DNA from: a virus
Length of the DNA: 28,574 nucleotides
Reading direction: 5' to 3' (one strand)
IMG/VR virus record: IMGVR_UViG_3300031227_000300
Coordinates: 1-28,574 of that record
The notes beneath the pieces were generated by a model that had not been told where the DNA came from, did not search any database, and worked only from the letters and a program-made list of their open reading frames with translations. The position numbers were made by a program, and so were the translations under genes. This document shows, one piece after another, positions 10,869-28,574 of the stretch (within the stretch, counting starts at the first letter, position 1; each line of letters starts with the position of its first letter).

Positions 10869-10877
10869 TGATATAAT
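10869..10877 (+). promoter_or_regulatory. extended -10 promoter for the HNH endonuclease gene
   Basis: TGATATAAT matches the extended -10 consensus (TGnTATAAT) exactly. No good -35 is present, as is usual for this class. Transcription would start near 10884, about 58 nt before the preferred GTG start. This gives the inserted endonuclease gene its own expression. Confidence 0.6.
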
Positions 10878-10941
10878 GTATACCAGGCATGACCTTGACC
10901 CCATGCCCAGCAAATCAAATCAATCTATTAGGGAGAATGAA

Positions 10942-11544
10942 GTGACTAAGAACATCATAACAAAACTATATGCCGGTGATAAAGTAGGCAGGCTAACAAT
11001 CTTAGAAGTTATTCCAGGGTATCTTGTTCCAGGCCATCCACCGGTACGAAAAAAAGCTAGGTGTTTGTGTGATTGCGGGAATAAATACACCTCTCGCTAC
11101 GACTCTATTAGAAATCAACATACCAAATCATGTGGGTGCATAGTCTCAGTTATACATGGAGGCTCTTACACGCCAGAATATAATGTATGGAACACCATGC
11201 GAACCAGGTGCAACAACTCAAACAGTAGCAACTACAGCAGTTATGGTGGGCGTGGCATTAAAGTTTGTGAGCGCTGGTCTAATAGCTTTGTTAATTTTAT
11301 AACTGACATGGGGAAACGACCATCACCTAAGCACAGCATAGACAGGGTTAACAATGAATTGGGTTACTCTCCTAGCAATTGCAAATGGGTGTTGGCTAGA
11401 GAGCAGCAAGGAAACAAGAGAGACACTAACCCAAGCGTTAAAAAGAACTGCCTTTCTTGTGATAAAATATTTCATGTTATGTTTTCCAAGATAAATAAAA
11501 CAAAGTATTGCTCAATGACATGCAGGCGACTAGGGGGTAAGTAG
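10942..11544 (+). CDS. free-standing HNH homing-type endonuclease with zinc motifs
   Basis: 200 residues from the GTG at 10942, preferred because AGGGAG lies 6 nt upstream; an in-frame ATG at 10876 overlaps the promoter. Order of parts: a beta-rich 'GDKVGRLTIL' start, a CxC (41-43) and CxC (64-66) zinc-type pair, 'WNTMRTRCNN' and 'YGGRGIKVCERW', then the HNH core at H131 ('KHSIDRVNNELGY--SNCKW') and 'REQQGNKR'. A C-terminal treble-clef-like motif (CLSC, CSMTC) is an addition. This architecture is common among mobile phage HNH endonucleases. It lies directly against the large terminase gene (no gap), a frequent site for such elements. It may cleave terminase DNA of related phages lacking it, which is inference. 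Confidence 0.8.
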   Translation: MTKNIITKLYAGDKVGRLTILEVIPGYLVPGHPPVRKKARCLCDCGNKYTSRYDSIRNQHTKSCGCIVSVIHGGSYTPEYNVWNTMRTRCNNSNSSNYSSYGGRGIKVCERWSNSFVNFITDMGKRPSPKHSIDRVNNELGYSPSNCKWVLAREQQGNKRDTNPSVKKNCLSCDKIFHVMFSKINKTKYCSMTCRRLGGK

Positions 11545-12900
11545 GTGTTAGAAAAAAGAATTGATTTTTTTGAGGACATCTTTCCAGCCTACGAACATCA
11601 AAAGAAATTGTTCCAAGCTTTCTTTAGTGGAGATTACAATAGATATGTTTTAAATTGGCACAGAAGGTGTGGAAAAGATGCGTGTCTTTTCTCCCTCGCC
11701 TGGTTGAATGCCAGTATAAATAGGGGTAACTATATTTATCTGCTTCCTAAAATTCAACAAGCCAAGTCTGTTATATGGGAGGCTACTGACCTCCATGGAA
11801 AAAGGTGGATTGAATCCATACCCAAGCACTTGTTAGCCAAGCCCCCGAACAACACAGAGAGAAAGTTGTATTTTACTTCAGGCTCGATGTTGCATATTAC
11901 TGGTGCAGACAGCATCTTAGGTAGTCACTTAGGTAGTAACCTTAAGGGTATATTTTATTCTGAGTTTCAGCGTTGCGCACCACAGACATGGGATTACTTG
12001 AGGCCAATCGTTAAACGCTCCGATGGCTTTGCCTGTTTTAATTTTACAAGCCTTGGCAAGGGGCACGCGTATCAACTTATGAAAAAAAACCAAGACAATC
12101 CTAGCTGGTACACTGAGAAGTTAACAGTCGACCAAACGCGAGACGATAAAGGTAACTACATATTTAGCCCTGAGCAGATACAGGAGGAGCGTGATTCAGG
12201 AATGGATGAGGAGCTTATTCAGCAAGAATACTATTGTGATGATAGTGTCGCGGTTAAAGGAACATTTTTTTCTCAGCAACTTCAGTTAGCGCGCGAGCAA
12301 GGGAGGATTAAGCCTAGCTTATTAATCTATCCTAAGATTGCTGTGCACACTTCCTGGGATTTAGGATCACGCGACTCTAATTCCATTTGGTTCTTCCAGG
12401 TCTTAGGTAGACCAGGAGCTCAAGAGTTCCATTACTTCTATCACTACGACCATAACTACGGTGACATTGACCACTACGTTGCTTTGTTATACAGAATCAG
12501 AGAGGAGTACGGCTTCAGTGGGTACGGGAATCATTTTTTACCGCATGATGTATCACAAACTGAGTGGTCGAGCGGCAAGACAAGACTACAAAGTCTTATG
12601 GAAAAAGGTGTGAACATCAAGCCAGTGCCAAGACTCAAGGTCATTGAGCGTGTGCAGATAGCTCGCTCAGCTTTCCATAAGTGTTACTTTGCAGAAGATG
12701 CATGTAAGCAGGGGCTTGAGGCTTTATCAGTTGCTCGAGCAAAGTACGACTACAACCTCAAAGCCTTCACTGCAGACGAGGTGCATGATTGGTCGAGTCA
12801 TGCTAGTGCAGCCTTCCAGTACGGCCATGTCGGTTGGCTTGATAGCTACAACAAGCCTGAGATGATGCAGCAAAAAGAATACGCAAGAGTCAGGTATTAG
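11545..12900 (+). CDS. terminase large subunit (DNA packaging ATPase-nuclease)
   Basis: 451 residues from a GTG that follows the endonuclease stop directly; GGGGG sits about 7 nt upstream. The ATPase half has a terminase-type Walker A at 38-45 ('WHRRCGKD') and a Walker B-like 'GIFYSEFQRC' (135-144), where Ser139-Glu140 stands in for the usual Asp-Glu; Ser-Glu versions are known in terminases. The nuclease half has 'SWDLGSRDSNS' with D272 and a C-terminal 'HDWSSHASAAF' with D415, the expected metal ligands. It pumps DNA into the procapsid through the portal. The small subunit is not upstream; a convergent gene ending 2 nt away is the probable partner. Confidence 0.93.
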   Translation: MLEKRIDFFEDIFPAYEHQKKLFQAFFSGDYNRYVLNWHRRCGKDACLFSLAWLNASINRGNYIYLLPKIQQAKSVIWEATDLHGKRWIESIPKHLLAKPPNNTERKLYFTSGSMLHITGADSILGSHLGSNLKGIFYSEFQRCAPQTWDYLRPIVKRSDGFACFNFTSLGKGHAYQLMKKNQDNPSWYTEKLTVDQTRDDKGNYIFSPEQIQEERDSGMDEELIQQEYYCDDSVAVKGTFFSQQLQLAREQGRIKPSLLIYPKIAVHTSWDLGSRDSNSIWFFQVLGRPGAQEFHYFYHYDHNYGDIDHYVALLYRIREEYGFSGYGNHFLPHDVSQTEWSSGKTRLQSLMEKGVNIKPVPRLKVIERVQIARSAFHKCYFAEDACKQGLEALSVARAKYDYNLKAFTADEVHDWSSHASAAFQYGHVGWLDSYNKPEMMQQKEYARVRY

Positions 12901-12935
12901 AATCAAACCTCTTTGAATTCTGTATCGCTAATACC
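12893..12935. repeat. 8-bp inverted repeat across the terminase gene junction
   Basis: GGTATTAG (12893-12900, containing the large terminase stop) and CTAATACC (12928-12935, inside the 3' end of the opposing gene) are perfect inverse copies with a 27-nt loop. There is no T-run on either side, so a factor-independent terminator is doubtful. It is the only structure seen at the convergent junction. Confidence 0.4.
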
Positions 12936-13445
12936 CGAATCACTTGCAGCTTCAACAGCTTTGAGTCGGTCTTCGAACTCTGTATGCTCCTGGACTTTAA
13001 CCACAGTTTCAATCAAGCGTGACATCTGAGTAGCCTCCACAGATGTAAGCTCTCCCTTCTCAACTGCTTTAAGTATTGCATCGAGCTTATCATTAGCGCT
13101 CTTTGCTTCAGCCAGCTGGGCTATCTTGATGCGCCTCTGTTGCGGCAAGTTGAACCGAGTATTCATAGTTCGATTATACAAGCCAAGGTTTAAGCGAGCG
13201 CCTTCGTGCTCTTCGATCATGTATGTTCTGCCAAGCTTCAAGTAGTATGATTTAGCTTTCATTTTTGCAGCTTCATAAGCGGCGGCAAAGTCTGGCTTTG
13301 ATTCAATCCACTTAAAGAATGTTGTTTCTGATATATCATGGTCGGCACAAAACTCTTCCATTGTCTCGCCACTCTCGAAACGCCTGGGTAATTCTGCAAC
13401 CATAGACTGCTTGAAGGGGCTTTCATTCTTCCAACTAGTAGCCAT
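12903..13445 (-). CDS. probable terminase small subunit, on the opposite strand
   Basis: 180 residues from the ATG at 13445. Longer in-frame starts are less likely because the promoter candidate lies at 13480-13488. Residues 28-48 form a helix-turn-helix ('TMEEFCADHDISETTFFKWI') of the kind used by small terminases to bind packaging sites. It is followed by an 'AKSYYLKLGRTYM' segment, typical of this family, and a C-terminal helical part (~110-165) suited to oligomerisation. It converges on the large terminase gene with a 2-nt gap. This layout is unusual, since the two subunits normally lie head to tail. An alternative is a phage DNA-binding regulator that occupies this place. Confidence 0.72.
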   Translation of the reverse strand: MATSWKNESPFKQSMVAELPRRFESGETMEEFCADHDISETTFFKWIESKPDFAAAYEAAKMKAKSYYLKLGRTYMIEEHEGARLNLGLYNRTMNTRFNLPQQRRIKIAQLAEAKSANDKLDAILKAVEKGELTSVEATQMSRLIETVVKVQEHTEFEDRLKAVEAASDSGISDTEFKEV

Positions 13446-13479
13446 TGACACACCCCGTTCCTTAATATCTATACCAATA

Positions 13480-13488
13480 ATCATACCA
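13480..13488 (-). promoter_or_regulatory. extended -10 promoter for the leftward small terminase
   Basis: On the minus strand the sequence reads TGGTATGAT, an extended -10 with one mismatch in TATAAT. Transcription would begin near 13473, giving a leader of about 28 nt. The -35 is poor. It implies expression independent of the late rightward operon. Confidence 0.5.
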
Positions 13489-13622: not shown

Positions 13623-13841
13623 ATGAGTAATTATAGGTTTGCAATACGAGATACAAGTGATGGCGCTATTCATACATCACGATTTACTTGCCTTGATGAT
13701 GCAATGAGTGCTTGCGAAGATATAGCTTATGCTATGGAGTTGGAGCCGTCAGAGCTTGAAGTTGTTGAGATGGTCGAGCGCGTTAATTCAAGCATAACCA
13801 CACAACACAACACAAACGGAAGGTACTACAATGAAAACTAA
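13623..13841 (+). CDS. hypothetical small acidic protein
   Basis: 72 residues from the ATG at 13623, with GGAG 8 nt upstream; a TTG at 13611 is rejected because it lies within that ribosome binding site. The sequence is acidic in the middle ('AMELEPSELEVVEMVE') and polar at the end. No family is recognised. It is first in the operon with the J-domain gene and overlaps it by 11 nt. The overlap crosses an ACACA-type short repeat. Confidence 0.6.
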   Translation: MSNYRFAIRDTSDGAIHTSRFTCLDDAMSACEDIAYAMELEPSELEVVEMVERVNSSITTQHNTNGRYYNEN

Positions 13842-14310
13842 TGACGCTTGCCAAATTCTAGGGCTCACCGGTGACATAACACCAGAGCTTACAAAAAAAG
13901 CTTACCGAAAAGCTTGTTCAATGTATCATCCAGACCGTAACCCGGCGGGGCTTGAGATGATGAAAGCAGTAAACGAAGCTTACGCAGCACTTAAAGACCA
14001 CACCGGCAGCGAGTCAGTAGGCATACAGTACGGCCATGAATTATTTGAGGCACTCACTGCTATCATTAACTTAGGTTTAGATGTTGAAGTGTGCGGCGCT
14101 TGGGTGTGGGTGTCCGGTGATACCAAACCTCACAAAGATGTATTAAAAGAAGCTGGATACAAGTGGGCTATGAAGAAAAAAATGTGGTTCTATCGTCCGA
14201 GTGATTACAAATCTTTTAGCCGTGGCAGCAAAAGCATGGATGATATCCGTGCCGTGTACGGTAGTGACAGGGCAAGCACTAAACAAAACAAACTCAAGAG
14301 GGCAGCGTGA
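13831..14310 (+). CDS. J-domain (DnaJ-like) co-chaperone
   Basis: 159 residues; GGAAGG lies before the ATG. Residues ~4-57 form a J domain with the diagnostic H33-P34-D35 in 'MYHPDRNP' and the following 'VNEAYAALK' helix. J domains stimulate the ATPase of Hsp70 (DnaK). Residues ~85-130 form a second module with several Trp ('WVWVSGDTKPHKDVLKEAGY', then 'MWFYRP'), seen in other J-domain-containing phage proteins and of unknown role. The zinc and Gly/Phe regions of full DnaJ are absent. It probably redirects host DnaK to a phage task such as replication complex remodelling (lambda needs DnaJ/DnaK at its origin) or virion folding; the target is inference. Confidence 0.85.
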   Translation: MKTNDACQILGLTGDITPELTKKAYRKACSMYHPDRNPAGLEMMKAVNEAYAALKDHTGSESVGIQYGHELFEALTAIINLGLDVEVCGAWVWVSGDTKPHKDVLKEAGYKWAMKKKMWFYRPSDYKSFSRGSKSMDDIRAVYGSDRASTKQNKLKRAA

Positions 14311-19387: not shown

Positions 19388-19576
19388 ATGTTAATACTTA
19401 CAAGAAAAAAAGGTGAGCAGATTTTAATCGGCGATGACATTGTGATTACATTACTAGGCTCGGGTTCACACGGTGAGCACCGAGTTGGTATTGATGCGCC
19501 TAGAACAATTCCAGTTGTGAGAAAAGAGATTGCCTGGCAGTTTGACGATGATGGAAATAGGGTTAACGAAGAATGA
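19388..19576 (+). CDS. csrA: CsrA/RsmA-family RNA-binding regulator
   Basis: 62 residues, the same length as E. coli CsrA (61). It begins with the hallmark 'MLILTRKKGEQILIGDDI' and keeps 'VGIDAP' and 'VVRKEI'. R6 and R45 align with the RNA-contact residues R6 and R44 of CsrA (one residue is inserted near 25-30). CsrA dimers bind GGA-containing leaders and block or activate translation. A phage copy in the early operon could retune host metabolism or motility, or regulate phage mRNAs, most of which have GGA in their ribosome binding sites. The start is 2 nt after the preceding stop. Confidence 0.93.
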   Translation: MLILTRKKGEQILIGDDIVITLLGSGSHGEHRVGIDAPRTIPVVRKEIAWQFDDDGNRVNEE

Positions 19577-20864: not shown

Positions 20865-21019
20865 TGGCTAACTTGCGCGCTCGTATTGACAAGCTACATG
20901 ATGGATTGATTAGCAAAGTAACGAGCCGCTTGATCGTCACAAAAGACGATGAGGTTATTAAACAAAAAGTATTTGGTAACAACATGAACAAGGTGGTGAC
21001 AATTGTCGTTAGACTTTAG
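20864..21019 (+). CDS. 51-residue hypothetical protein
   Basis: GTG start overlapping the previous stop (TAGTG). The sequence is basic with alternating hydrophobic strands ('SKVTSRLIVTKDDEVIKQ' and 'KVVTIVVRL'). It overlaps the next gene by 17 nt. No family is seen. Coupling and the absence of an alternative gene here support it. Confidence 0.5.
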   Translation: MANLRARIDKLHDGLISKVTSRLIVTKDDEVIKQKVFGNNMNKVVTIVVRL

Positions 21020-21440
21020 GCCGGACAGGGATGTGTACGTTATTTTTCACGACGACACGCAGTACAGGTTTAGTAAATACATGACGGTGGGGTTCAAACA
21101 TGCATTTATTATTGAGCGAAGCGCACTAGGATGGATATGCTTTGATGCTTCACGTACAAATATTGCTGTTGATATATTACCAGCAGATTATTTTTCTGAG
21201 GTTATGCAGCATTTCCACGGCAAGCATAAAGGCGCAACTATTCTTCACCTCACAATTCAGCCAACGAATTCATCTAACTATCCTCGGCCTGGAATAATCA
21301 GTTGCGTTAGTTCTGTTCAATACTATCTGGGCATTTACTGGCCATGGATATTCACGCCGCACTCACTGTATACTAAGCTAAAGAATAAACCTCCAACACA
21401 TATCAAGGTGGACGATTATGTCGGGAAAATCAGCAGCTAG
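21003..21440 (+). CDS. conserved podophage-type protein upstream of the portal, possible papain-like fold
   Basis: 145 residues from TTG at 21003, which has AAGGTGG 6 nt upstream. The pattern 'KHAFIIERSALGWICFDASR' followed by 'GIISCVSSVQYYLGIYWPW' and 'FTPHSLYTKL' resembles small phage proteins often found before the portal gene. The His near residue 33 and the Cys in 'SCVSSVQ' could be the pair of a permuted NlpC/transglutaminase-like fold. This is a tentative reading. It overlaps the next gene by 23 nt and begins the virion module. Confidence 0.6.
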   Translation: MSLDFRPDRDVYVIFHDDTQYRFSKYMTVGFKHAFIIERSALGWICFDASRTNIAVDILPADYFSEVMQHFHGKHKGATILHLTIQPTNSSNYPRPGIISCVSSVQYYLGIYWPWIFTPHSLYTKLKNKPPTHIKVDDYVGKISS

Positions 21441-21684
21441 AAGACAGGCTAACGCAGCAGCGCAGCAAGCAAACCAGGCCGCTCAGCAAGCAAACGTCGT
21501 TACACAACAGCTCGCAAAAGAAACAGCAACGCTTAATGAACGTAAAGCCTTGGAGTCAAGTAAAGCTCAGCGTTTACTTATGCGCTCACTACGAGCGGGC
21601 AGCGGTAGCGGATTCTTTCTTAGTGACACAACCTCAGGCGCAGGCTCTTCCGGTGTCTTAGGTTCAACAGGGGTGCTAGGATAA
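21418..21684 (+). CDS. small virion protein, T7 gp7.3-like by position
   Basis: 88 residues; AAGGTGG is 8 nt before the ATG. The N-terminus is Ala/Gln-rich and helical ('ANAAAQQANQAAQQANVVTQ'), then comes a basic 'AQRLLMRSLRAGSGSGFF' and a Gly/Ser tail. T7 gp7.3 has the same size and a similar basic-to-Gly/Ser end, and also lies just before the connector gene. It is probably a tail or head-to-tail assembly factor. The assignment rests on position and composition. Confidence 0.5.
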   Translation: MSGKSAARRQANAAAQQANQAAQQANVVTQQLAKETATLNERKALESSKAQRLLMRSLRAGSGSGFFLSDTTSGAGSSGVLGSTGVLG

Positions 21685-23339
21685 TGGTTGACGTAAATAA
21701 ACTACTCAAGCGGAGAGATAACCGCCAGGTGTTTAAAGATATTAACGACGCAAGCCAGCCAGCTTTGGATGTGAACCGTTTGTGTCGCCGACGTAGCAAT
21801 GCTAAATCAGACCTGGACAAGTGGCGTTCATTACTTGAGACGGCTTATCATTACTCCATGCCTGACTACAATCCGTTCGAGAACTTTGGGCAAGGGGGCG
21901 CGGTTGCTCCTGGTCAACAATACAGTGCTGACACTTACGACTTAACTTTAGTGATTGCACACAAAAGACTGGCTGATAAAATGTTGATGGGGCTTGTACC
22001 TCAAGGCCAGCAGTGGATGAAATTCAAACCAGGCGATGCATTCGGTTCACCGACTGAAGACTTGTATATGCAAGCAGCTGAAGCAACACAAGAGATGACC
22101 GATCAGTTTTACAAAATCTTAGACCGCAGTAATTTTTATACAGCGGTTGGTGAAAGCTTGAATGATGTATTGATATCAACTGGCGCACTTGCAATCAACG
22201 AAGGTACACGCAAAGACCCGTTGAAGTTTGAAGCAGTGCCAGCCAGTCATATTATGTTTGAAGGTAATGCGCAGGGTGGTATCGATGCAGTGTTTCGCGA
22301 TTGGTATAACGTTCGCGTTGAAAACATTAAAGAGATGTGGCCTGGTGCTGATGCTCCAAAAGATAAAGACGCAGACCACAAGGTAACAATTTGGGAATGT
22401 GCGTATAGAGACAACGACGCTACGGACGATAAGAAATATAAGTACGTGGTGATGACCGACAGCAAAGAGATTTTGCTAGAGCAATCCAATCCGTCATGGC
22501 CATGGGTTGTGTATCGTATGCGTAAACTTGCCGGTGAAACACGTGGCCGTGGGCCATCAATGCAAGCGTATCCTACAGCCGCTACGATTAACGAAGCTAT
22601 GAAAGATGAGTTGATAGCCGCAGCGTTTAAAGCTAACCCGATGTACATGGCAGCTAGTGACTCAGCCTTTAACCAGCGAACCTTTACAGCTAAGCCAGGC
22701 GCAGTTGTACCCGTTCAGATGGTCATGGGGCAGTGGCCTATCCAGGGCTTCCCTGCTACCGGTGATATTAATTTCTCAGCATTGGTTATCAATGACCTAC
22801 GCCAGCAAATTAATGAGCTTATGTTTTCTTCACCACTAGGTAACATAGCTAACACCCCTGACCGTACTGCAACTGAGGTTTCAATTCGTAACGCTGAAAA
22901 CTTAGAAGCGTTTGCGGCCATGGTTCCAAGATTGCAAAGCGAGTTCTTTACGCCAGTGATTGAGCGCAGCATGTGGATTATTAACAAAGTGTTGCCAGAT
23001 ACATTCGGGCGCATTGACCCAGAAATTAAAAGTAAAATGTTGTCACTTGATGGCGAGTTACTTGACTTGAGATATGAAACACCTCTGATGACTGAGCGCG
23101 GCAAAATAAAAATCACCACTTTGATGGACTTCTATCAGTCAGTCTCATCTATGATTGGGCCAGAGGGTGCAACCGCAGTGCTTGACGTGCCGAACGTTGT
23201 TATTAACGCAGCCGAAGATATGGGTATTGATTTAAAAAACATCAAGTCTAAAGATGAGCTCGACCAACTCATGGCAGCAGCAGGTCAAGCAGCCGACCAG
23301 GTAGCAGAGCAGCAAGGGGTAGACATAAATGAACAGTGA
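21684..23339 (+). CDS. portal (head-to-tail connector) protein
   Basis: 551 residues, close to T7 gp8 (536). It matches the podovirus head-to-tail connector family: 'SLLETAYHYSMPDYNPFE', 'YDLTLVIAHKRLADKMLMGL', 'PQGQQWMKFKPGD', 'VPASHIMFEG', and a C-terminal helical barrel region ('PDRTATEVSIRNAENLEAFA'). Twelve copies form the ring through which the terminase loads DNA and to which gp11/gp12-like proteins attach. It starts on the stop of the gp7.3-like gene and overlaps the next gene by 11 nt. Confidence 0.94.
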   Translation: MVDVNKLLKRRDNRQVFKDINDASQPALDVNRLCRRRSNAKSDLDKWRSLLETAYHYSMPDYNPFENFGQGGAVAPGQQYSADTYDLTLVIAHKRLADKMLMGLVPQGQQWMKFKPGDAFGSPTEDLYMQAAEATQEMTDQFYKILDRSNFYTAVGESLNDVLISTGALAINEGTRKDPLKFEAVPASHIMFEGNAQGGIDAVFRDWYNVRVENIKEMWPGADAPKDKDADHKVTIWECAYRDNDATDDKKYKYVVMTDSKEILLEQSNPSWPWVVYRMRKLAGETRGRGPSMQAYPTAATINEAMKDELIAAAFKANPMYMAASDSAFNQRTFTAKPGAVVPVQMVMGQWPIQGFPATGDINFSALVINDLRQQINELMFSSPLGNIANTPDRTATEVSIRNAENLEAFAAMVPRLQSEFFTPVIERSMWIINKVLPDTFGRIDPEIKSKMLSLDGELLDLRYETPLMTERGKIKITTLMDFYQSVSSMIGPEGATAVLDVPNVVINAAEDMGIDLKNIKSKDELDQLMAAAGQAADQVAEQQGVDINEQ

Positions 23340-23565
23340 AGATGTAAGTTGGCATGATAAATTTGATGAACTTTGCTTTGCAGTGTTTTACAAAAACCCT
23401 CAGGGCAAAGAGTTGCTTGCTCACTTAGAAAAGAATTACTTTAGAAGCCCAGTAGCATACCCGAACAAAGAACCAAGTTGGGCGTACTTTAATGAAGGAA
23501 AGAATGAGCTCATACGTTCGTTCACCGTCGGTATTCAATCACACTTAAACGCAGGGAAAATTTAA
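23329..23565 (+). CDS. small structural protein, Bbp19-like
   Basis: 78 residues; AAGGGG lies before the ATG. The layout 'FDELCFAVFYKNPQGKELLAHL' followed by 'SWAYFNEGKNELIRSFTVGI' matches the small Bbp19-type phage protein family, often encoded between portal and scaffold. The role is unknown, but family members are thought to be structural. It is coupled to both neighbours. Confidence 0.6.
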   Translation: MNSEDVSWHDKFDELCFAVFYKNPQGKELLAHLEKNYFRSPVAYPNKEPSWAYFNEGKNELIRSFTVGIQSHLNAGKI

Positions 23566-24350
23566 TGACTGACGAATCAACAGAAGTTGTGCCAGAAGTT
23601 GCACAGGAAGTTGCAGCAGATACAACACCAACAGAGACACAGCCTGCAACAGAGACACAACCCGTTGAACCCGTAGCTGATGCAACACCTGAACCTGTAA
23701 CCGAAGAAGCTAAAGAAGAAGAAACGCCAGAATGGTTTATGAAAGACAAGTACAAATCAGTTGAGGAGCAAGCTAAATCCGCTTTCGAGCTGCAAAAAAA
23801 GATGGGGAAATACTGGGGTTCACCGTCCGACGACTACAGCCTGGAAGGCATAGAAGGTGTTGCAAAAGACGACCCTCTCTTAAGTAACCTTGTACCAGCT
23901 ATCAAAGAGCTAGGGCTTTCACAGGAAGGTTTAAACCATCTTGCTAAGCAATACATGGACGCTAACACCGCTATGGTCAAGACGTTCGAGGAAGCTTTAA
24001 AGAAAGAGTTGACCGTGGACAATGCTCAGTCTTACCGCGACAGTCAAAAGTGGATGGGCGAAAACTTAACGGCTGAAGAAACACAGCTAGTTCAAAACAA
24101 TTGGCTGATGACACCGGCAGACTTTAAGTTATTTAATAACTTGCGACTGATGGCAGCACCTAAAACAAATGTCCCTAGTGCTATGGGTTCAAGCGCAACT
24201 AAATTTGAATCATCCAAAGAAGTTGAGAACGATAAGATTACATATCGCAAAGAACTTAAAGAGAAAATACGTGTGGTTGATAGAAATCACGAGGACGATT
24301 TAGCCAGGCGTTTCCGTGAAGCTAGGACTCGAGAGACACGAAGTCTGTAA
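23565..24350 (+). CDS. scaffolding (capsid assembly) protein
   Basis: 261 residues, somewhat shorter than T7 gp9 (307). Residues 1-55 are acidic and rich in Pro/Thr/Glu. This is followed by 'PEWFMKDKYKSVEEQAKSAF', 'LQKKMGKYWGSP' and 'DPLLSNLVPAIKELGLSQEG', typical of podovirus scaffolds, and a basic helical C-terminus that would bind the capsid protein. It lies between portal and capsid as expected. It guides procapsid assembly and leaves before DNA filling. Confidence 0.88.
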   Translation: MTDESTEVVPEVAQEVAADTTPTETQPATETQPVEPVADATPEPVTEEAKEEETPEWFMKDKYKSVEEQAKSAFELQKKMGKYWGSPSDDYSLEGIEGVAKDDPLLSNLVPAIKELGLSQEGLNHLAKQYMDANTAMVKTFEEALKKELTVDNAQSYRDSQKWMGENLTAEETQLVQNNWLMTPADFKLFNNLRLMAAPKTNVPSAMGSSATKFESSKEVENDKITYRKELKEKIRVVDRNHEDDLARRFREARTRETRSL

Positions 24351-24354
24351 AAGA

Positions 24355-24383
24355 TTTTCAATTGTAGTCATTAGTGTTATAAT
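24355..24383 (+). promoter_or_regulatory. capsid gene promoter
   Basis: TTTTCA, a 17-nt spacer and a perfect TATAAT (24378-24383) preceded by TGT, making an extended -10. It lies in the only long gap of the head module (24351-24504). Transcription near 24390 gives a leader of about 115 nt with a short CTTGC/GCAAG hairpin. It would boost capsid mRNA over the rest of the operon. Confidence 0.68.
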
Positions 24384-24504
24384 TGTAAGTAGTTTAAGCA
24401 GGCCCGAAATAAGCTGGACACCTTGCAATGCATCGCAAGCCTGGCCGATAGTTGGATACCCTGGTTGTAAACACACGTTTGTTTATTTAATCAGGGGACA
24501 CACT

Positions 24505-25353
24505 ATGTCATTGAATCTTAGTCAAATCGAAATCGAACAATTTTTAAGCGATGCTCACGCAGAATTCCAATCCGAAGGTTTCTTGCTTGAGAATACCGTA
24601 CGCGTTAAGACCGGAACCAAGGGAACAAGCGTTCACTTCCCAGTTTTTGGCGATGGTATTGCTAATCAAAAAGCACCTCAAGATGATGTAACACCAATGA
24701 ACATTTCTAACCGTGACGTAGTTGTTACGATTGAAGATTGGTATGCGCCAGAGTACGCCGACCGTTCATTCCAAAACAAAATTGCCGTTAATGCAGTCGA
24801 AGAATATACCAAGATGTGTTCTTGGGCCATTGGTCGACGGTCAGATCAAATCTTAATTGACGCAATCGAAGCAGCTACATATGCAACCACGCCTACAGAT
24901 TTACAGGGTGCTCAGGTAGCTAATGGCGGCGGCACTGGATTTACGTTTGCTAAGTTTTTAGAAAGCCGGAAGTTCATGCGTCAACGTGCTTCTGCTCGTG
25001 GTAAAACAACTTTGTTAATCGACGCTGAAGCTGAAAGTGACTTGATGAATGAAGACAAGTTGACCAGCTCCGACTACGTTAACAACAAAGCTATCGCAGC
25101 TGATGGCTTAAACGGCATGACAATCATGGGCGTTGACTTCCTTGTTATTCCAGACATGAAAGAGAACGGCTTAACAGCTGGTCAAGCTTACATGTATAAC
25201 GAGATGGCAGTTGGCTATGCATCTTCAGAACGTTTAGGTGGTGATATTTCTTGGGAAAACGTCAAGACATCTTACTTGATCAACATGTGGTTAGAAGCCG
25301 GTTCAGCCGTCATTGACCCACGCGGTTTAGTTGAGATTCTTTACACCGTTTAA
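24505..25353 (+). CDS. major capsid protein
   Basis: 282 residues from the ATG at 24505, with AGGGGA 7 nt upstream. An open frame extends to 24316, but it crosses the promoter and scaffold end and is not coding. The sequence fits an HK97-fold podovirus capsid: 'FLSDAHAEFQSEGFLLENTV', 'YADRSFQNKIAVNAVEEYTK', 'AWAIGRRSDQ'-like helix region, 'GKTTLLIDAEAESDLMNEDK' and a C-terminal 'AGSAVIDPRGLVEILY'. It is smaller than T7 gp10A (344). It has its own promoter and follows the scaffold gene. Confidence 0.93.
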   Translation: MSLNLSQIEIEQFLSDAHAEFQSEGFLLENTVRVKTGTKGTSVHFPVFGDGIANQKAPQDDVTPMNISNRDVVVTIEDWYAPEYADRSFQNKIAVNAVEEYTKMCSWAIGRRSDQILIDAIEAATYATTPTDLQGAQVANGGGTGFTFAKFLESRKFMRQRASARGKTTLLIDAEAESDLMNEDKLTSSDYVNNKAIAADGLNGMTIMGVDFLVIPDMKENGLTAGQAYMYNEMAVGYASSERLGGDISWENVKTSYLINMWLEAGSAVIDPRGLVEILYTV

Positions 25354-26551: not shown

Positions 26552-28574
26552 ATGCCCATGCGAACAGCAAACAATAGCTTCAGCAACGGCGAGTTAGACC
26601 CTACACTGTACGCACGTGTTGATGTTGATGTGTATACCAAAGGAGCTAGAAAGCTTCGTAACATGATTGGGCTTTGGACTGGCGCAGCTCGTATAGCGGC
26701 TGGCGCTGTTTACGTTGATGTCATGGTAGATAGAGAAAACTCAGACGCAGTAATTTCTAACGCCGACTATGTTAATGGCGTTGATTTATTGTTTGATGCA
26801 GCGAACGATGTGGTCTACACAATAATTCTTAGGCAGTCTAACGCCGTATCCGCAATTGATATTTATTATAATGACGTACTGCAAGCAACAGTTACCGGTG
26901 CAGGTTACACAAACGCACAAATCAGCAATGTAAATTATGTTGTTGGCAACGATAGAATATTATTACTTCATGAGTCAGTTGCCATTAAACAATTAGTGCG
27001 GACATCTGCACATTCAGGCTGGACACTATCAACACTCCCTTGGTTTGGTACAGCAACAACTGGACCGTACATGCCTACGTTTGATTTCACAACGCTAGGT
27101 GGAACGCAGTACCGGCTGAGCACGTTTACGTTTACACCCAATGCAACGAGTGCAACAACTATCACAGCCAATGGTGCTATTTATACAGCCGGACACGTTG
27201 GTGGAATTTTTCGCGGGAACGGTGGCGTAGCTAGAATAACCGCAGTTAACTCAGGCGGTACAATTGCAACAGTAACAACAATCACAGCTTTTAATGCAAC
27301 GTCTGCTATCTCGGGTTTGCTTTCATCGTTAAGTGAGCGAGTATGGGGCGACTCTACAGCAGGAACACCAGCAGGTTCAGATAGAGGATGGCCGACGCGA
27401 GGCACTTTCTTTATTAACCGTTTAATTTTGGGGCGCTCACCTGTTCTTAAGAATCTTGTGTGGTTTTCTGACGCAGGAATTTATGATAGCTTTGATGATT
27501 CAGAAGTTGATGCAATATCATCATTCAGTGCGTCATTTAATGGCCGTGGCGAGCAAGCGGTCGAGTCTATTATCGCTGATGATTCTATTATATTCGTAAC
27601 ATCTAATCGAGTCTTTGCGCAGAGCCCACTATTTGAAACAGCAATCACCGCGACTAACTTTTATTTCTCACCTCAGTGCCAGCAGCCAGCAAGTGAGATA
27701 CCAGCGGTCGCATTAGACAATCAAATATTTTATCCGTCAGGGAATAAAACCCAGGTAACGCAGCTTGTATTTAATACCGGTGACGCACGTTACGTTGGGT
27801 ATCCAGCGGGATTATTATCAAACCAATTATTCCAAACCATTACCTCTAACGGTACATGGGAGCCTGATAACATATCAGCTAAACTTTATCTGGCTACGCA
27901 AGCAGATGGAACAATGCTTATGTACAACACACTGCTTCAGCAAAAGATATCTGCATGGAGTCTTAGAACTACGCGCGGTAAGTACAAGCAGGTTATTGGT
28001 GATGGCAGAGAAGCCATGACAATTGTTGAGCGTCAAATAAATCTAGGCTTAACTACATTTGAAACGCCAATGGACTACGCTTACTCAAGCAATCCAGCTA
28101 TGACCGCATTTTATAATGTTCAAGTTGACTTGGAATCAGGCTCAGGTTCAACAGTTACGCTACTTGAAAACCAAGATGACTACATTGTTTTTGGTAATGA
28201 CGTTCCATTTACAGCAATTGATATTACGTTAGATACCGTGGCATCAAGCGATTGTGGTTTAGTCTTTGAGTACTTAGATATTAATGAATCATGGGAAACG
28301 TTTACGCCGACCGACAACACGACAGGGTTAACCGGAAGCGGTTCAATTACCTGGGCGTTTACTGACGTGTCAAACTGGGGCCCTGGAGATGTTAACTCCA
28401 TTGAAGATAAGTTCTGGATACGTATTCAACGAACCACAGCAGCAGTAACAACCTCGCCTATCTTTGAGCAAGTCGAAGTTAACACAGGCATTAGATTATT
28501 TCTTGAGCGGTTAGACTTTAACTCGTACATGGATTCACAAACTAACACCTCATCTGATGCAAGCGGTGATGTGA
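26552..28574 (+). CDS. tail tubular protein B (T7 gp12-like nozzle), 3' end outside window
   Basis: 674 codons are present without a stop; T7 gp12 has 794 residues. GAGG lies 8 nt upstream of the ATG. The N-terminus has the diagnostic 'FSNGELDPTLYARVDVDVY' and 'KGARKLRNMIGLWTGAA', followed by beta-propeller-type strands ('LLFDAANDVVYTIILR', 'DRGWPTRGTFFINRLILG', 'FFINRLILGRSPVLKNLVWF'). It forms the tail nozzle and binds the fibre N-termini. In the genome its missing end should lead to the internal virion proteins at the left edge of this window. Confidence 0.92.
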   Translation, partial: MPMRTANNSFSNGELDPTLYARVDVDVYTKGARKLRNMIGLWTGAARIAAGAVYVDVMVDRENSDAVISNADYVNGVDLLFDAANDVVYTIILRQSNAVSAIDIYYNDVLQATVTGAGYTNAQISNVNYVVGNDRILLLHESVAIKQLVRTSAHSGWTLSTLPWFGTATTGPYMPTFDFTTLGGTQYRLSTFTFTPNATSATTITANGAIYTAGHVGGIFRGNGGVARITAVNSGGTIATVTTITAFNATSAISGLLSSLSERVWGDSTAGTPAGSDRGWPTRGTFFINRLILGRSPVLKNLVWFSDAGIYDSFDDSEVDAISSFSASFNGRGEQAVESIIADDSIIFVTSNRVFAQSPLFETAITATNFYFSPQCQQPASEIPAVALDNQIFYPSGNKTQVTQLVFNTGDARYVGYPAGLLSNQLFQTITSNGTWEPDNISAKLYLATQADGTMLMYNTLLQQKISAWSLRTTRGKYKQVIGDGREAMTIVERQINLGLTTFETPMDYAYSSNPAMTAFYNVQVDLESGSGSTVTLLENQDDYIVFGNDVPFTAIDITLDTVASSDCGLVFEYLDINESWETFTPTDNTTGLTGSGSITWAFTDVSNWGPGDVNSIEDKFWIRIQRTTAAVTTSPIFEQVEVNTGIRLFLERLDFNSYMDSQTNTSSDASGDV

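Follow-up and report, generated by a model that had tools for sequence, protein, structure and literature searches.

The small and large terminase subunits (TerS and TerL) are usually depicted as a single cassette with both genes on one strand. In phage P2, the annotated large (P, leftward) and small (M, rightward) subunits nevertheless belong to opposite operons, and the proximity of TerS to TerL is not universal according to a TerS review, which cites Pseudomonas phage E217, where TerS is not next to TerL and lies about 58 kb off (PMC9611059). A broken terS–terL cassette, with 15 ORFs between the two genes, is described in Burkholderia phage CSP3 (PMC10269572). Closer to the locus described here, Alteromonas phage ZP6 carries a TerL that is 32% identical and a similar order of portal, capsid and tail genes, and Sf6 gp1 (PF20901) shares with the small subunit described below an N-terminal HTH and central helices, the two proteins matching in both sequence and fold from about residue 8 to 119. 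An adjacent convergent TerS/TerL pair was not found described in the open-licence literature, judged mostly from search listings, and the available parts of PMC8540360, PMC3185647, PMC8442406, PMC6854486, PMC5217972 and PMC4505115 describe none.

The window, that is, the whole stretch of DNA analysed, is a linear IMG/VR virus record of 28,574 bases. It is probably a fragment of a phage genome, since an ORF from ~26552 continues past the right end of the record. In gene content the phage resembles a T7-type podovirus equipped for RecE/RecT recombination: a head-tail adaptor (phrog_332), a capsid protein (phrog_3437) and a tail protein (phrog_394) are matched, and exonuclease VIII and RecT are encoded along with an internal virion protein. 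The features on which the analysis turns are as follows.

10876–11544 (+): HNH endonuclease (phrog_374, E 2e-50), abutting TerL
11545–12900 (+): TerL, terminase large subunit (phrog_2, E 2.3e-18), closing the rightward late block
12893–12935: 8-bp inverted repeat, GGTATTAG at 12893–12900 and CTAATACC at 12928–12935, spanning the junction
12901–12902: gap of 2 nt between the convergent stop codons
12903–13445 (−): TerS, terminase small subunit, 180 aa with the 13445 ATG as start (PF20901, phrog_1482, Sf6 TerS fold)
13480–13488 (−): putative extended −10 promoter of TerS, TGGTATGAT, inside a longer 204-aa ORF
21684–24350 (+): portal, small gene and protease/scaffold (phrog_332, phrog_458), a block whose end precedes the late-block breakpoint
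24375–24505 (+): promoter of the major capsid protein (MCP), TGTTATAAT at 24375, with a structured leader RNA at 24394–24467
24506–25353 (+): MCP (phrog_3437, E 2.4e-35 for the ORF 24316–25353)

Close to TerS, on the opposite strand, lies a gene for a DnaJ-domain protein (PF00226) at 13831–14310 (+), with relatives of 60–62% identity in L001 and L003.

Analysis of the leftward gene product bears out the small-terminase identity proposed for it by the sequence-only reading. Specifically, the score for Pfam Sf6_terminase (PF20901) is 33.2 bits, above the cut-off of 27, and the PHROG TerS family phrog_1482 is matched at E 1.8e-8 by the window protein and is matched by all 16 of the 16 TerS family members. 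The relatives are weaker on PF20901, with 3 of 50 records above the cut-off. A family profile searched against the PDB recovers Sf6 gp1 (E 0.006). The structure comparison that the same reading had put forward as a check rests on an AlphaFold2 model (mean pLDDT 74, pTM 0.41, with pLDDT 88–91 over residues 11–60) in which the HTH DNA-binding and central helical domains of Sf6-type TerS are present; its best solved-structure match is Sf6 TerS, and the fold is not an unrelated one. Foldseek with the whole model places Sf6 TerS at the top of the PDB, with a weak E of 0.31 and a probability of 0.99, and a named terminase small subunit second in BFVD (E 2.5e-4). VIA-align gives Sf6 TerS a Z of 9.2 (rmsd 6.2–6.9 over 108–109 residues), with the next unrelated row at 5.9; P22 TerS is listed at only Z 5.8 and is given no weight. 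The C-terminal part of the protein (about 120–180) has no match to Sf6 TerS.

The same comparisons bear on whether this gene encodes a TerS-like HTH regulator instead of a packaging TerS. HTH_Tnp_1 is also just over its Pfam cut-off in the window protein (24.9 vs 24.1), and the whole-model Foldseek E-values against the PDB, like the pTM, are weak; the passed Sf6_terminase cut-off, the TerS PHROG in every family member, the Z-score of Sf6 TerS in an output that lists P22 TerS too, and the lack of another TerS among the scanned window ORFs nevertheless make a regulator very improbable. A different small terminase appears neither in 23 further window ORFs, with E thresholds of 0.005 for PHROGs and 0.01 for Pfam, nor among the window ORFs scanned before those. 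From family profiles and a predicted model, 12903–13445 (−) is thus identified as encoding a genuine Sf6-type small terminase, for which ring formation, DNA binding and TerL stimulation are predicted. The product of 21003–21440 (+), which lies ahead of the portal gene and was considered as a rival TerS, carries no TerS signal; it has no Pfam hit and is kept before the portal in the mapped relatives that hold one.

The TerS frame extends in a longer ORF up to 13517, which would give a protein of 204 aa. Since the extended −10 element lies inside this longer ORF and sequence conservation of the family begins just past the ATG at 13445, the 180-aa protein from that ATG is the likelier product. 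The element itself, assigned to TerS from the window sequence at the outset, is located at 13488–13480 (−). An extended −10 pattern that we picked ourselves and somewhat loosened matches 8 of 16 TerS upstream regions, against a shuffle mean of 0.75 and a maximum of 3 in 300 shuffles. The promoter is absent from the output of a general promoter scan because that scan requires two hexamers.

Gene order upstream of TerS addresses a further explanation, which assigns TerS to an early or middle operon transcribed leftward and TerL to a late operon transcribed rightward, the two genes abutting where the transcription arms meet. TerS does end a leftward gene run in three relatives, in a run with RecE and RecT in G002, and closing a run of about ten genes in G012 and one of three in G009. 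In the window, G003, G004 and G017, however, TerS stands alone with a divergent upstream neighbour, and the extended −10 lies directly upstream of TerS in half of the relatives, so that meeting arms are quite unlikely to account for the layout.

The TerL stop ends at 12900 (+) and that of the leftward TerS gene at 12903 (−); these coordinates confirm a small terminase convergent with TerL, with 2 nt between the stops. TerS therefore adjoins TerL, as is typical of the tailed-phage terminase cassette, but the co-orientation that is usual, though not universal, in such cassettes is lacking, the two genes lying on opposite strands in the window and in 14 of 18 rows of its clade (window included). 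The inverted repeat described earlier across the junction is found, and is equalled or bettered in 1 of 60 dinucleotide shuffles of the window junction, rarer than chance. Terminator-like sites are detected at the window junction neither by a consensus scan nor by a second, separate scan, in keeping with the earlier remark that no obvious terminator separates the two genes.

Matches to TerL were obtained by tblastn in 311 phage records. Direct tblastn of TerS against phage records and a single-sequence TerS scan of IMG/VR returned no match, and TerS relatives were recovered with a profile built from relatives. In L001–L006, whose TerL is 60–69% identical to that of the window, a TerS homologue (35–42%) lies downstream on the opposite strand in six of six; L005 and L006 are identical in both TerL and TerS. 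From a broader profile search, 80 IMG/VR loci and 10 genome contigs were retained. The TerL tree comprises 81 rows, and in it the window belongs to a clade of 18 distinct TerLs with support of 100/100. Synteny in relatives, likewise suggested at the outset as a check, shows TerS convergent just 3′ of TerL in 14 of these 18 (window, L001–L005, L012, L018, L019, L021, L022, L025, L026 and L095); repeat contigs, repeat TerLs and near-identical rows were not counted apart (L006, L007, L009, L011, L013–L017, L023 and L087–L094). Because convergence recurs in independent relatives, it is not a product of chance or of an assembly slip. Elsewhere in the clade, L024 has a probable diverged TerS in this same convergent position, which lacks a TerS family hit and reaches a profile E of 0.0058, or 2.6e-5 in a smaller set; L020 has TerL near the right contig end and TerS on the opposite strand near the left, so that the contig would have to close for the pair to be convergent; and the last two, L008 and L010, have rearranged layouts. 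The L095 contig, from the same phage type, comes from a MAG that bears the name of an archaeon, Candidatus Nitrosotalea, and is probably a misbinned phage contig.

For more distant TerLs, 28 same-strand upstream ORFs, out of 56 distinct loci, were scanned against TerS PHROGs, with phrog_51 found in 8 and phrog_309 in 5, counts that may overlap. Ten upstream ORFs scanned singly comprise seven with TerS hits and three without (L030, L040 and L106); the truncated Vibrio phage gene of L106 matches only phrog_9747 by PHROG, yet reaches 3.6e-5 with the TerS profile. TerS lies upstream of TerL and co-oriented with it in the outgroups L031 and L035; a third arrangement is seen in L027. The direction of change depends on such outgroups, whose branch (22 rows) has a modest support of 86/84. 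Also at a convergence point, 26998–27531 (−) of Pelagibacter phage HTVC010P has no TerS profile hit.

The sequence-only reading had further suggested that the junction times or limits TerS synthesis, and this part finds no support across the relatives. A selected timer, in which read-through from TerL gives antisense RNA and polymerase collision so that TerS is made early and shut down at the late peak, could draw on the convergence kept in 14 of 18 TerL rows and on a window junction without a terminator. By analogy with E. coli antisense promoters, which repress in proportion to their own strength (PMC4731013), antisense interference at TerS would be physically plausible. An antisense regulatory pair would, however, be expected to show a conserved junction geometry without a terminator, whereas the TerL–TerS gap ranges from −4 to +947 nt, terminator-like hairpins occur in the gaps of L005 (bidirectional) and L021 (forward), and the 8-bp inverted repeat has no recurrence in the relatives. 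Moreover, the L010/L116/L129 lineage has abandoned the layout: TerS lies upstream of MCP, and all three of TerS, MCP and TerL share one strand. A selected timer is accordingly unlikely, and support for antisense timing is weak. In 4 of 18 members the TerL stop and that of a recognised TerS overlap or are 2 nt apart, and this tight packing could be selected. The layout is conserved and the junction is not, and an inherited modular layout is therefore favoured over an antisense timer.

The rearranged relatives define what moves. L116 and L010 are 99.98% identical over 5310 nt, and in both the protease/scaffold gene behind the portal faces TerL with a 4-nt overlap; L129, 99.95% identical to L116 over 6525 nt, carries TerS and then MCP on one strand. 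Combined, these layouts place the MCP-to-TerL segment in inverted orientation relative to the window, in an arrangement assembled from overlapping contigs rather than from one complete genome. In L123/L124, MCP-to-fibre is inverted against TerL, and TerL still faces a probable TerS. In L127/L128, which have a 127-nt end repeat, TerS leads the portal gene, TerL faces the end of the tail genes, and a fragment of TerS lies at the opposite contig end. The breakpoint ahead of MCP recurs among the rearranged relatives, and the MCP promoter and leader RNA travel with MCP, the first gene of the movable late block (start read at 24506). Inverted repeats above the level of shuffles are absent at the inversion breakpoints. 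Programmed inversion within one population was considered and found no evidence, the closest convergent and inverted TerLs being 79% identical.

TerL itself also appears mobile. The TerL tree pairs L010 with L012 and L008 with L025, while L008 and L010 have flanks that are 88–94% identical and TerLs that are about 72% identical; similar flanks around different, separately placed TerLs suggest that TerL has been replaced between the L008 and L010 backgrounds. An HNH gene lies against TerL in both the window and L008 (1651–2163), with 49% identity, which suggests homing-type co-conversion.

Since the late block is inverted in other lineages, the TerL/TerS junction is a module boundary. The explanation that we consider probable is an independently transcribed TerS in an inherited modular layout, with the late block inverted in other lineages and no selected antisense control. 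As inferred from its family, TerS would bind the packaging site and pass DNA to TerL as in other phages, and it would be expressed from its own extended −10 promoter, not from the late operon. TerL would have come to stand at the end of a late block complete in itself (promoter, leader RNA, MCP, tail, lysis and TerL), with TerS sitting past this block on the other strand and the convergence inherited through the clade. With the late block inverting against the rest of the genome, convergence would be a by-product of shuffled gene blocks, and read-through beyond TerL would yield RNA antisense to TerS. A stronger proposal, that the late block of this small-podophage clade flips repeatedly against the replication and portal block while TerS, left out of the flips and with a promoter of its own, switches between a head-on position to TerL and one at the front of the capsid operon, is conceivable but doubtful; if true, this switching tests whether packaging depends on coordinated terminase expression in any way.

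A clade with opposite-strand terminase genes, at some loci stop to stop, shows that shared transcription is not required to set dosage, and the convergent and TerS-first layouts offer a natural comparison for the timing of packaging initiation. An annotation rule that seeks TerS only upstream of TerL would miss it in 14 of 18 clade rows.

The structured leader RNA of the capsid gene may be more novel than the terminase layout. Directly after the MCP promoter, the window encodes a hairpin RNA (24394–24467, +) with two internal loops carrying AYAC. Across eight relatives, the window included, 95.1% of cells pair against 76.6% in shuffled alignments, and covariation is 0.60 against 0.23, a value reached by 0 of 500 shuffles; the structure was derived from the same eight sequences, and the covariation test is not independent. 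Beyond the sequences on which it was trained, a model of these eight finds one copy, ahead of MCP in L126 (E 7e-5); the 48 sources searched yield no other with an E of 1 or less. The leader has no match in Rfam 15. A CsrA-like protein is also encoded in the window at 19388–19576 (+) (PF02599, E 8.7e-19; position read from the ORF), with a similar ORF in L110 at 564–749; a link between this protein and the leader RNA would be speculation.

Compared with the systems described at the outset, the window differs from Sf6 gp1 in the unmatched C-terminal half of its TerS (about 120–180) and in having the gene on the strand opposite to TerL, and from ZP6, where TerS and TerL are annotated as co-oriented, with TerS upstream, at the front of the late genes. 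In P2 the two operons are divergent and capsid genes lie between them, whereas the window genes are adjacent and convergent. The subunit genes of E217 are distant, unlike the adjacent, convergent pair of the window, and those of CSP3 are separated by an insertion, not an inversion. Separated terminase subunits are already known, from the annotation of P2 and the review that cites E217, and the adjacent convergent layout is a variant of this arrangement.
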